Assembly: GCA_022239325.1 (NCBI GenBank)
Contig: JAKOGP010000002.1
Span: forward strand, 282,862-346,861
DNA: 64,000 nucleotides
Source: Flavobacteriaceae bacterium LSUCC0859
Lineage (GTDB): Bacteria; Bacteroidota; Bacteroidia; Flavobacteriales; Flavobacteriaceae
Reading direction: 5' to 3'
Shown here: positions 33,195-46,730 of the stretch, piece by piece
Numbering within the stretch: position 1 is the first letter of the stretch
How the letters are laid out: every line of letters starts with the position of its first letter
Notes under the pieces: model-generated
Seen by the model: only the letters and a program-made list of their open reading frames with translations
Databases searched by the model: none
What the model was told of the DNA's origin: nothing
Translations under genes and position numbers: made by a program

Positions 33195-35093
33195 ATGAGT
33201 GACGCCATTAAACACGAATGTGGAATTTCTTTAATTAGACTTCTCAAACCTTTAGAATACTATAAGGAAAAGTACGGTACCGCCTTTTACGGGGTAAACA
33301 AAATGTACCTGATGATGGAAAAGCAGCACAATAGAGGTCAAGACGGAGCTGGCTTTGCAAGTATAAAATTAGATATGCCAGCGGGTTCTAGATATATGAG
33401 CAGGGTGCGCTCTGCAGAACCCCAGCCCATACAAGATATCTTTGCGCAGATTAATAAACGCATTAGCTCAGAACTCAATGCCCACCCAGAATACACAGAA
33501 AACGTAGCCCTTCAAAAGCAACATATTCCCTATATAGGAGAGCTTTTACTAGGTCATGTACGTTATGGCACCTTTGGAAAAAATTCAATAGAAAGCGTAC
33601 ACCCCTTTCTCAGACAAAACAACTGGATGCACCGCAACCTTATTGTTGCGGGTAATTTTAATATGACCAACGCTAAGGAACTCTTTGAGAACTTAGTTAG
33701 TCTAGGGCAGCACCCTAAAGAAGACGCAGACACTGTAACGGTCATGGAAAAAATTGGCCACTTTTTAGATGACGCTGTGGCTAAGCTGTATAAGCAAATA
33801 AAAAAAGAGGGGTACACCAAAATGGAGGCCTCTGCTATTATTGCAGAGCGCTTAAATGTGGCCAAAATTCTAAAAAAAGCCTCTAAAAACTTTGATGGAG
33901 GCTACGCCATGGCCGGCCTTATTGGACACGGAGACGCCTTTGTACTCAGAGATCCGGCTGGCATTAGACCTGCCTATTACTATGCAGACGAAGAAGTGGT
34001 AGTGGTGGCTTCTGAGCGTCCTGCCATTCAAACCGTTTTTAATGTACCTTTTGAATCTGTTCAAGAATTAGACCCTGGTGCAGCCATTTTAATCAAAAAA
34101 AATGGAGAGACTAATATCAAACAAATTCTAGAACCGCTACCCCGAAAAGCCTGCTCCTTTGAGCGTATTTACTTCTCCAGAGGTAGCGACAAAGAAATTT
34201 ATAAGGAGCGTAAAGCACTTGGAAAATATTTATTCCCTCAAATTTTAGACAGCATAGGTGGGGATATTAAAAATACAGTGTTCTCCTACATACCCAATAC
34301 TGCAGAAACCTCTTTTTTTGGAATGGTTAGAGAGGCTCAAAACCACATGAATAGGGAGAAAGAGGCCCAAATTTTAAGTATTGGTAGAGACATTACGAGC
34401 CAGGAATTGCACGAAATTCTAGAAGTGAGGCCGCGTATAGAAAAGGTTGCCATTAAAGACGCCAAACTCAGAACCTTTATTACCCAAGACAGCGGTAGAG
34501 ATGACCTTGTCGCCCACGTATACGATGTAACCTACGGCTCTGTTAAAACTACGGACAATCTAGTTATTATAGACGACTCTATTGTGAGGGGAACCACTCT
34601 AGAGAAGAGTATTTTAAAAATCTTAGACCGATTGGGTCCTAAAAAGATTGTTGTGGTTTCTTCTGCACCACAAATTAGATATCCAGATTGCTATGGTATA
34701 GACATGGCTAAATTGGAAGACTTTATAGCATTTAGAGCTGCTTTGGCCCTTCACAAAGAGAGAGGAAGCATGGACACCGTAGAAAACATTTACAAAAAGT
34801 GTGTGGCTCAGTTAGCGTCTAAAGACGCCGATGTGGTGAACCATGTGACCGAATTCTACGCACCTTTCACCCCAGAAGAAATTTCACTTAAAATTGGGCA
34901 ACTGCTCACTGGCCCAGAAATTAAAGCTGAGGTAGAGATTGTATACCAATCCATAGAAAACCTTCACTTGGCCTGTCCAGAAAACTTAGGAGACTGGTAT
35001 TTTACAGGTGATTACCCCACCCCTGGAGGTAACCGAGTGGTAAACCGAGCTTTTGTGAATTTTTATGAAGGCAAAAATGAAAGGGCCTATTAA
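33195..35093 (+). CDS. Amidophosphoribosyltransferase (long PurF variant)
   Basis: Glutamine amidotransferase fused to a type I phosphoribosyltransferase; the standard reaction makes phosphoribosylamine from PRPP and glutamine. An N-terminal nucleophile Cys at residue 9 follows a short propeptide (MSDAIKHE|CGIS). The class II domain continues with HNRGQDGAGFAS and LLGHVRYGT. The PRPP loop VIIDDSIVRGTT is intact. At 632 residues it is about 130 longer than E. coli PurF (about 505). I leave the symbol open because a shorter purF may exist elsewhere in the genome. Confidence 0.82.
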   Translation: MSDAIKHECGISLIRLLKPLEYYKEKYGTAFYGVNKMYLMMEKQHNRGQDGAGFASIKLDMPAGSRYMSRVRSAEPQPIQDIFAQINKRISSELNAHPEYTENVALQKQHIPYIGELLLGHVRYGTFGKNSIESVHPFLRQNNWMHRNLIVAGNFNMTNAKELFENLVSLGQHPKEDADTVTVMEKIGHFLDDAVAKLYKQIKKEGYTKMEASAIIAERLNVAKILKKASKNFDGGYAMAGLIGHGDAFVLRDPAGIRPAYYYADEEVVVVASERPAIQTVFNVPFESVQELDPGAAILIKKNGETNIKQILEPLPRKACSFERIYFSRGSDKEIYKERKALGKYLFPQILDSIGGDIKNTVFSYIPNTAETSFFGMVREAQNHMNREKEAQILSIGRDITSQELHEILEVRPRIEKVAIKDAKLRTFITQDSGRDDLVAHVYDVTYGSVKTTDNLVIIDDSIVRGTTLEKSILKILDRLGPKKIVVVSSAPQIRYPDCYGIDMAKLEDFIAFRAALALHKERGSMDTVENIYKKCVAQLASKDADVVNHVTEFYAPFTPEEISLKIGQLLTGPEIKAEVEIVYQSIENLHLACPENLGDWYFTGDYPTPGGNRVVNRAFVNFYEGKNERAY

Positions 35094-35155
35094 AAAAGGC
35101 TAGGACTTGTCTTCAATCCTCATAAATGTTAAAATTATGGGGGAATATGTTAAAG

Positions 35156-35198
35156 AAAAGTGTCAGTCATCGAAAAAAAGTGTCAGTCATCGAAAAAA
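35156..35198. repeat. Two-copy 20-bp tandem repeat before small RNA 1
   Basis: The string TGTCAGTCATCGAAAAAA occurs at 35161-35178 and 35181-35198, each preceded by AAAAG, so the period is exactly 20 bases (about two helical turns). It ends 24 bases before the putative -7 box of the first small RNA. It could be a double operator or activator site. Confidence 0.6.
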
Positions 35199-35222
35199 TT
35201 TTTTTCTAACACCTATACCACA

Positions 35223-35230
35223 TACATTTA
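35223..35230 (+). promoter_or_regulatory. Possible -7 box of small RNA 1
   Basis: TACATTTA matches TAnnTTTG except for the last base. It lies four bases before the ACCATA that begins the part shared with copy 2. A weak basal promoter needing an activator would fit the tandem repeat just upstream. Confidence 0.35.
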
Positions 35231-35234
35231 TGGA

Positions 35235-35304
35235 ACCATAAACAATTAGGTTATGTTCTTGGTAAGATTTGGGGAAAAAGGCGGACGTTTGTCCGCCTTT
35301 TTTA
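35235..35304 (+). ncRNA. Putative small RNA, copy 1
   Basis: About 70 nt from ACCATA (35235) to the terminator T run. It shares with copy 2 an ACCATA start, a 28-base core (35247-35274; 24 of 28 identical) that ends in GGTAAGATTTGGG, and a terminator hairpin directly after the core. No open frame is present. The hairpin sequence differs fully from that of copy 2, so what is conserved is the core and the layout, as expected for duplicated trans-acting RNAs. The Rfam Flavo-1 motif is one candidate family; not verified. Confidence 0.5.
35280..35304 (+). terminator. Intrinsic terminator of small RNA 1 (and purF read-through)
   Basis: The stem GGCGGAC/GTCCGCC with loop GTTT, A-rich before it and seven T after it. 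Confidence 0.93.
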
Positions 35305-35410
35305 TGTTTTTGTTTTTTCTATTTTACAACTAAAACACCCACAAACAATGCATTTATTAATTTTATCTAAAAACCATTATAAAAACCTTAGAATTTAAAA
35401 GGTTTTTTTG

Positions 35411-35442
35411 TTTGATTCTTGAAATGCTTTATATTATTTTTG
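35411..35442 (+). promoter_or_regulatory. Promoter of small RNA 2 (TTTG-N20-TATTTTTG)
   Basis: A -33 TTTG at 35411-35414 and an exact -7 box TATTTTTG at 35435-35442, separated by 20 bases. This is the best full match to the Bacteroidetes vegetative promoter in the window, yet no protein gene follows on this strand before sodB, which reads the other way. Confidence 0.75.
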
Positions 35443-35447
35443 TGCCA

Positions 35448-35523
35448 TACCATAGCATAAGTAGGTTAAGTTTATGGTAAGATTTGGGATAGAAAAGCTA
35501 GTGTTTACACTAGCTTTTCTTAT
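35448..35523 (+). ncRNA. Putative small RNA, copy 2
   Basis: About 75 nt from the predicted start six bases after the -7 box to the end of a hairpin. ACCATA (35449-35454) can pair with TATGGT (35473-35478) to form a 5' stem; the conserved GGTAAGATTTGGG overlaps its 3' arm and runs on single-stranded to the terminator hairpin at 35491-35520. The core at 35462-35489 is homologous to copy 1, 215 bases upstream. No start codon with a meaningful frame is present. Confidence 0.6.
35491..35520 (+). terminator. Terminator-like hairpin of small RNA 2
   Basis: A perfect inverted repeat AGAAAAGCTAGTGT / ACACTAGCTTTTCT with two bases between the arms. The T-rich part lies inside the stem, and TATATA follows. 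Confidence 0.7.
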
Positions 35524-35563
35524 ATAAAAAAGCCGCTCGTATACCGAGCGGCTTTTTTATATA
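35521..35563 (-). terminator. Intrinsic terminator of sodB
   Basis: The stem AGCCGCTCG/CGAGCGGCT with loop TATAC, extended by A/T runs on both sides, so it may work in both directions. A second hairpin ATGGGGTA-AAC-TACCCCAT (35563-35581) lies between it and the sodB stop. Confidence 0.9.
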
Positions 35564-35597
35564 TGGGGTAAACTACCCCATCCCAAATGGGTCTGTT

Positions 35598-36206
35598 TTA
35601 TTTATTGGCCTGAAAAAGTGCCGCTGCGTTATCCCAATTAATTACATTAAAAAAGGCTCCTACATAGTCAGGTCTTCTGTTTTGGTAGTTTAGGTAATAA
35701 GCGTGCTCCCAAACGTCTAATCCAAGGATAGGGAAACCGCCACAACCTATACCAGGCATGAGTGGGTTGTCTTGGTTAGGGGTAGAACAAATCTCTAATT
35801 TTCCACCCTTGTGAACACAAAGCCAAGCCCATCCAGATCCAAATCTAGTAGCCGCTGCCTTTGAAAAAGCTTCTTTAAAAGCGTCAAAAGAACCAAAAGA
35901 AGCGTCAATAGCTGCTGCTAAATCTCCACTAGGAGTACCGCCTCCGTTGGGCGACATGGAATTCCAAAACAAATTGTGGTTATAAAAACCACCACCATTG
36001 TTTCTCACCGCTCCATTTTCTAGATCTAAGCCCGCTAAAATATCTTCAATAGAAGCGTTTTCATGAGGAGTTCCAGCTAGGGCTGCATTTAAGTTGTTAG
36101 TATATCCTTGGTGGTGCTTGCTATGGTGAATTTCCATAGTTCTTGCATCTATATGAGGCTCTAAAGCGTCATAAGCATAGTCTAATTTTGGTAAATCAAA
36201 AGCCAT
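35598..36206 (-). CDS. sodB: Superoxide dismutase (Fe/Mn family)
   Basis: Detoxifies superoxide in the cytoplasm. The 202-residue protein has metal ligands in HHSKHHQGY (near residue 29) and in the C-terminal [13 protein letters not shown], with the central NHNLFWNSM. The family is clear; whether iron or manganese is used is not decided here, and sodB is used by convention. Its own promoter box lies 30 bases upstream and two hairpins follow it. Confidence 0.95.
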
Positions 36207-46656: not shown

Positions 46657-46730
46657 TGGAGAATAGCGGATTCGAACCGCTGACCTCTTGCCTGCCAGGC
46701 AAGCGCTCTAGCCAACTGAGCTAATCCCCC
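46657..46730 (-). tRNA. tRNA-Ala (anticodon GGC)
   Basis: Read on the minus strand, a 74-nt cloverleaf: acceptor GGGGGAT/ATTCTCC with two G-U pairs, D stem GCTC/GAGC, anticodon stem CTTGC/GCAAG with loop CTGGCAG (anticodon GGC, codons GCC and GCU), and T stem AGCGG/CCGCT with loop TTCGAAT. Discriminator base A; CCA is not encoded. It lies at the edge of the integrase scar, and tRNA 3' ends are usual integration sites. Confidence 0.97.

Follow-up and report, generated by a model that had tools for sequence, protein, structure and literature searches.

Two similar units between purF and sodB

The gap between purF and sodB (35094-35597, 504 bp) holds two similar units on one strand, each leading into a terminator-like hairpin. 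This raises the question of whether they are sibling small RNA (sRNA) genes, how widely such genes occur and what they might regulate. Coordinates refer to the window, i.e. the whole stretch of 64,000 nucleotides that was analysed; for genome-wide searches, the host genome was rebuilt from its pieces (1824 ORFs). The features of the locus are as follows.

33195..35093, + strand: purF, 632 aa, an ORF; anchors the array upstream in almost every relative with visible flanks
35153..35192, + strand: two direct copies of AAGTGTCAGTCATCG, 20 bp apart, found as a self-repeat; likely activator site of copy 1
35223..35230, + strand: -7 box of copy 1, TACATTTA, TAnnTTTG type, read from the sequence
35235..35303, + strand: sRNA copy 1, about 70 nt, covariance model R1, 58 bits
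35235-35263, + strand: diverged hairpin of copy 1, part of the sRNA
35264-35274, + strand: linker of copy 1, AAGATTTGGGG, part of the sRNA
35275..35302, + strand: terminator hairpin of copy 1, 12-bp perfect inverted repeat with a T-run at its end
35411..35442, + strand: promoter of copy 2, TTTG-N20-TATTTTTG, read from the sequence
35449..35522, + strand: sRNA copy 2, about 73 nt, canonical family sequence, model R1, 69.6 bits
35449..35478, + strand: 5' hairpin of copy 2, ACCAUAGC.UAA-GUAGG-UUA.GUUUAUGGU, predicted fold, z -4.6
35461-35465, + strand: pentaloop GTAGG of copy 2, within the 5' hairpin
35479..35490, + strand: single-stranded linker of copy 2, AAGATTTGGGAT, seed candidate, unpaired probability about 0.9
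35491..35520, + strand: terminator hairpin of copy 2, 14-bp perfect inverted repeat
35521..35563, no strand assigned: second terminator-like symmetric hairpin between copy 2 and sodB, 19-bp perfect inverted repeat
35598..36206, - strand: sodB, 202 aa, convergent downstream anchor, identified as an ORF and by synteny

The two units share a common core of 30 nt with 87% identity at a spacing of 215, and only about 5e-5 pairs of 28-mers with such likeness would be expected by chance in a gap of this size. A preliminary description, made from the sequence alone, had claimed an identity of 24 of 28 bases between 35247-35274 and 35462-35489, a shared ACCATA start (35235 and 35449), unrelated terminator-like hairpins (perfect inverted repeats with T-rich ends), a promoter of copy 2 (TTTG at 35411-35414, 20 nt, TATTTTTG at 35435-35442) and the absence of a protein gene after copy 2, where the next gene, sodB, is convergent. 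All of these claims held. Its reading of the units as sibling sRNA genes is also supported, and the family proved to be far broader than could be seen from one locus. The gap contains no ORF of at least 60 aa. The motif GGTAAGATTTGGG (35261-35273 and 35476-35488) occurs nowhere else on either strand of the 2.17 Mb host genome, which has only two copies of the sRNA in total.

At the sequence level, the units meet the criteria for trans-acting sRNA genes, namely an own promoter, an intrinsic terminator and no same-strand gene downstream. It is very likely that functional RNA genes exist in this gap. The genes themselves are shown by computation; their expression is inferred, as no transcript data are available.

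Most of the family hairpin sequence is gone from host copy 1 between 35235 and 35264 (AAACAATTAGGTTATGTTCT), with TAGGTTA and the linker kept. Three other genomes (L006, L008 and L018) have diverged likewise. The symmetric hairpin at 35521-35563 has A- and T-tracts on either side and probably ends transcription from both directions, that of copy 2 and that of sodB.

Distribution and synteny in the Flavobacteriaceae

A covariance model built on a 46-nt core was used to search related genomes. In a first set, 32 of 40 genomes of the same family were positive, and about 156 genomes of the order's other families gave no match. In a larger set, the core was found in 239 of 299 Flavobacteriaceae genomes, representing 192 of 236 genera, with one to seven copies per genome. 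The stricter filter applied in the 299-genome count may miss diverged copies. Losses of the sRNA are scattered across the family. Furthermore, at least 120 stretches in named bacterial genomes matched the core pattern, many of them with two to six tandem copies. All were titled Bacteroidota and, where named, belonged to Flavobacteriaceae such as Zobellia, Maribacter, Allomuricauda, Arenibacter, Robiginitalea and Kordia, among others. Together with the relatives, these matches yielded 312 distinct copies, collected with a position weight matrix.

Comparing the purF-sodB gap in related genomes, as had been proposed beforehand, showed that the array is kept there almost family-wide. Where flanking genes can be seen, the arrangement is nearly always purF(+), copies(+), sodB(-), helicase(+), and it recurs in another, independent set that covers a large genus with genomes of 3-6 Mb. 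The tandem copies have a median spacing of 210 bp. Additional copies outside purF-sodB were observed in a few genomes (G016 C13, G035 C2:1751428 and G017 C32).

Conservation and structure of the RNA

The consensus of the core is ACCATARCATAAGTAGGTTAAGTTYATGGTA(A)GATTTGGGG, with the terminator directly after it, and the median length of the sRNA is about 72 nt. Between random pairs of copies (n=301), identity is 94% in the 41-nt core, 53% in the terminator region and 35% upstream. Since the seed set was partly picked by a pattern inside the core, the core identity is biased upwards. Nevertheless, the 5' part ACCATARCATAAGTA, which lies outside the selection pattern, is equally conserved. The core leads into a stem of at least 8 bp with a T-rich end in 300 of the 301 copies, formed by 99 different 5' terminator arms. 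An unconserved core with drifting hairpins would have refuted the sRNA reading according to the preliminary description; the terminators do drift, but the core is nearly fixed, which favours that reading.

These data also bear on two rival explanations. The units could be a selfish or REP-like repeat that duplicates in place, as suggested by tandem copies of variable number with a regular median spacing. This is practically ruled out by the location of the copies, nearly always at the same locus across 192 genera, by a near-identical core without common ends beyond the RNA and by the presence of just two copies in the entire host genome. Alternatively, a short conserved peptide could be encoded (ATGGTAAGATTTGGG.., read as MVRFG..), and MVRFG can be read in 274 of the 301 copies. 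However, a large group of genera carries a one-base deletion variant, GGTAGATTTGGGG (variant B, one A missing), which shifts the frame to MVDLG in 20 copies. In addition, the frame enters terminators of drifting sequence and length, and the ATG is paired within the hairpin. With no conserved reading frame in the core, a peptide can be all but dismissed as well.

For the RNA, structure is likewise shown by computation. The 5' hairpin folds stably in every variant tested: the variants CCATAAC (CCATARC), CCAGAAC and CCTGAAC keep the full stem with a shifted bulge and an unchanged 3' arm. Conventional covariation is weak because the core sequence hardly varies. Two sites are exposed, the hairpin loop UAAGUAGGUUAA and the linker AGAUUUGGG; the loop GUAGG and the linker are predicted to be unpaired, and the linker is conserved in nearly all copies. 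It had been suggested that the purine-rich linker is the seed and that the ACCATA/TATGGT stem hides part of it. The latter holds only for GGT, as AAGATTTGGG is single-stranded. The former is plausible, given that the linker is unpaired and its complement is over-represented before host start codons. What had been missed is the loop UAAGUAGGUUAA, which matches the linker in conservation and has its complement in the gldL leader of 14 genera.

Promoters and possible control of the copies

In 271 of 301 copies, a TAnnTT[TA][GA] box is found no more than 16 nt upstream, and the promoter box keeps a fixed distance from the core. With several copies per genome, a conserved core and separate promoters, the criterion for sibling sRNAs is met. 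When the first, middle and B-type copies are aligned on their -7 boxes, upstream self-similarity peaks at exactly 20 bp, the elements lying near -70 and -50. In host copy 1 this takes the form of a nearly perfect 20-bp tandem repeat (35153-35192). Such a layout fits a dimeric activator on direct repeats. The repeats may resemble LytTR sites, in which two direct repeats some 20-22 bp apart lie upstream of the core promoter. This is inferred from sequence alone, and no regulator has been identified. The last copy of long arrays is without the 20-bp repeat and has a conserved stretch CTTTGTTATTTCTCACAATACCAGTAATTTAG at -33 to -7. This distinct promoter suggests a second regulator. Since promoters differ within an array, the copies may answer different signals. 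As a separate observation, conservation of the last-copy promoter in long arrays spans the spacer (TTATTTCTCACAATACCAGTAATTTAG) as well, which sets it apart from ordinary promoters (e.g. L028:2560-2640, L062 and L081).

The position of the units directly after purF on the same strand, converging on sodB and accompanied by several terminators, would also be compatible with cis-acting elements, i.e. read-through from purF, antisense to the 3' end of sodB, or tandem attenuators in a terminator cluster. This is very unlikely, as there is no same-strand gene before sodB, every copy has its own promoter box, the terminators drift while the core is fixed, and further copies exist elsewhere in some genomes. 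A riboswitch or leader attenuator was rejected, as sodB, the next gene, is convergent in the host and its relatives and is not a regulated downstream gene.

Known RNA families and literature

The covariance search against Rfam and Flavo-1, which had also been proposed, matched the sRNA in neither case. None of 4227 Rfam models matched it at the gathering threshold in the window and in the loci of five relatives, and low-threshold searches gave only weak chance matches centred on the terminators. The sole Rfam match in the 64-kb window is a tRNA gene (46657-46730, - strand). Flavo-1 (Weinberg et al. 2010, PMC2864571), which like the sRNA is a Flavobacteriaceae RNA motif with hairpins, matched neither at its gathering score nor at E-values up to 5. 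Its matches are said to fall indistinctly in sense or antisense of transcripts (PMC9723704).

Known sibling sRNAs include Qrr of Vibrio (RF00378), LhrC, OmrA/B and PrrF. Like these, the purF-sodB sRNAs have near-identical genes with separate promoters, a conserved core, a terminator hairpin and a proposed trans pairing. In contrast to them, they are unrelated in sequence, belong to a different phylum and are mostly strict tandem repeats at one locus. The Qrr model gave only a chance match on the opposite strand, far below its cut-off.

Experimentally identified sRNAs of Flavobacteriaceae comprise Rfp1-89 in F. psychrophilum (PMC9723704) and candidates in F. columnare (PMC5395568), and these transcriptome studies report sRNAs without Rfam relatives. 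The relevant main-text sections of both papers name no sRNA at purF-sodB; their supplementary sequences were not covered. One of Rfp1-89 could well be the purF-sodB sRNA. For Rfp18, a third stem-loop and proteases as targets are described (PMC9723704). The core sequence itself is not printed in the open-access literature searched. Tandem sibling sRNA genes are an ordinary kind of object, but these probably form a new family, unusually broad and unusually constrained, with one plausible conserved target.

Search for targets in the host genome

Duplex energies computed for linker and loop at 1823 start regions showed no global excess over shuffled linkers, and neither did a comparison of all core k-mers with start regions. 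This genome-wide search, proposed at the outset, yielded a single complement of the core that stood out. CCAAATCT, the complement of AGAUUUGG, was observed nine times at -35 to -8 against 1.1 expected (p 3e-6) and is the only complement 8-mer of the core with p < 0.005 in this interval. It ranks 45th of 4788 8-mers, and most higher ranks are promoter boxes. The genes it precedes include those which we take to be gldL, glmS, metF, an H-NOX-like gene and two response regulators. It was not found at gene starts in 400 kb of a relative (G121), of which only a partial genome was available.

Other candidates were rejected. The long complement of the linker, CCCAAATCTTA, has one host site outside the array, in a long repetitive coding region. 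An enrichment of TAACCTA was set aside as unreliable, since TAA doubles as the stop codon of upstream genes. A LuxR-type response regulator failed the conservation test as a conserved target, its site being found in the host only; therefore, single-genome matches should not be trusted. Two further sequences that are not promoter boxes are likewise markedly enriched before host start codons (-35 to -8), namely AGACGCCC (six seen, 0.13 expected) and CGTGGAAC (four seen, 0.08 expected).

The gldL leader as a candidate target

The best-supported target candidate is gldL, a motor gene for gliding motility and type 9 secretion. Leaders of different genera carry different complements of the sRNA, CCAAATCTT, TTAACCTACTTA, AACTTAACC and AACCTGCTTA. 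In 13 sRNA-positive genomes, the complementarity of gldL exceeded that of dinucleotide shuffles for both the longest Watson-Crick run (Fisher p 4e-5) and the duplex energy (Fisher p 4e-4). No complementarity beyond shuffles was found for gldL in 17 genomes without a detected sRNA copy (p 0.97 for the run, 0.81 for the energy). The 12-mer TTAACCTACTTA is confined to the sRNA copies and the gldL leader in one genome (G017) and occurs at one further place in another (G020).

Among the 299 genomes, 15 from 14 genera have a loop-type site before ATGGCACARTC in the gldL leader and 11 from 8 genera have a linker-type site there, and reversed-pattern controls gave no match. All 26 genomes with a site are sRNA-positive (p 0.002). 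For the loop-type site, CCUAC is predicted to be unpaired just before a small hairpin of the leader.

This complementarity and its conservation are shown by computation; pairing in the cell is inferred only. Several limitations apply. Only 26 of 299 genomes fit the two patterns, which require one particular gene start, shared descent within clades inflates the counts, and gldL was picked after its CCAAATCT site in the host had been seen. Possibly, the sites represent one inherited leader element per clade. On balance, the arguments for and against gldL as a true target of the sRNA carry similar weight. Separately, the gldK-gldL gap of 15 genomes contains a small conserved hairpin, TTAAGTA..TACTTAA, with a drifting loop directly after AACCTAC. 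It could be conserved for another reason and may be a regulatory element of its own.

Regarding pairing with mRNA leaders, gldL complementarity was positive, the LuxR-type regulator was negative and a genome-wide excess was absent. An alternative is that the sRNA is real but mainly binds a protein, for instance as a titrating RNA or sponge of a chaperone or translational regulator, with incidental mRNA complementarity. Hairpin, loop and linker are alike conserved (94% over 41 nt), multiple copies raise the dose and there is no genome-wide excess of complementary sites, all of which would fit this explanation. It is considered unlikely, as complementarity in the gldL leader goes along with the presence of an sRNA copy. 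Still, conservation extends over all 41 nt, more than pairing with a single target would require, which counts against the base-pairing reading preferred below.

Proposed mechanism and implications

In the preferred reading, the units would be siblings of one Flavobacteriaceae-wide sRNA of about 72 nt, with a 5' hairpin carrying the loop GUAGG, an unpaired linker of 11-12 nt, (A)AGAUUUGGGG, and a freely varying intrinsic terminator. Since each copy has its own promoter, extra copies would add dose and could answer different signals, and the 20-bp direct repeats upstream of many copies would represent a typical response-regulator site. The loop or linker would base-pair in trans with mRNA leaders. 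That the sRNA acts in this way is likely, although inferred. In many genera it would pair with the gldL leader, most likely blocking translation; the direction of the effect is again an inference. As inferred from the folds, first contact may be made by the loop GUAGG on CCUAC and then extended to 10-12 bp. Taken as a whole, sibling genes of a family-wide trans-acting sRNA with control of gldL included, this reading is more likely than not.

A bolder reading is that a family-defining, regulator-controlled and dose-variable sRNA throttles gldL and hence gliding and type 9 secretion, with the GUAGG:CCUAC loop contact opening the hairpins on both RNAs. The present evidence falls slightly short of making this the expected outcome.

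Regulation by sRNAs has been little explored in Bacteroidota beyond the gut genus Bacteroides. With one to seven copies at a single locus in roughly four out of five genera, this RNA provides a defined entry point for a major marine, soil and fish-associated family. The covariance model could become an Rfam family and thereby improve the annotation of many genomes. The control of gliding motility and type 9 secretion is poorly understood as well. If gldL is a true target, RNA regulation would be linked to both processes.
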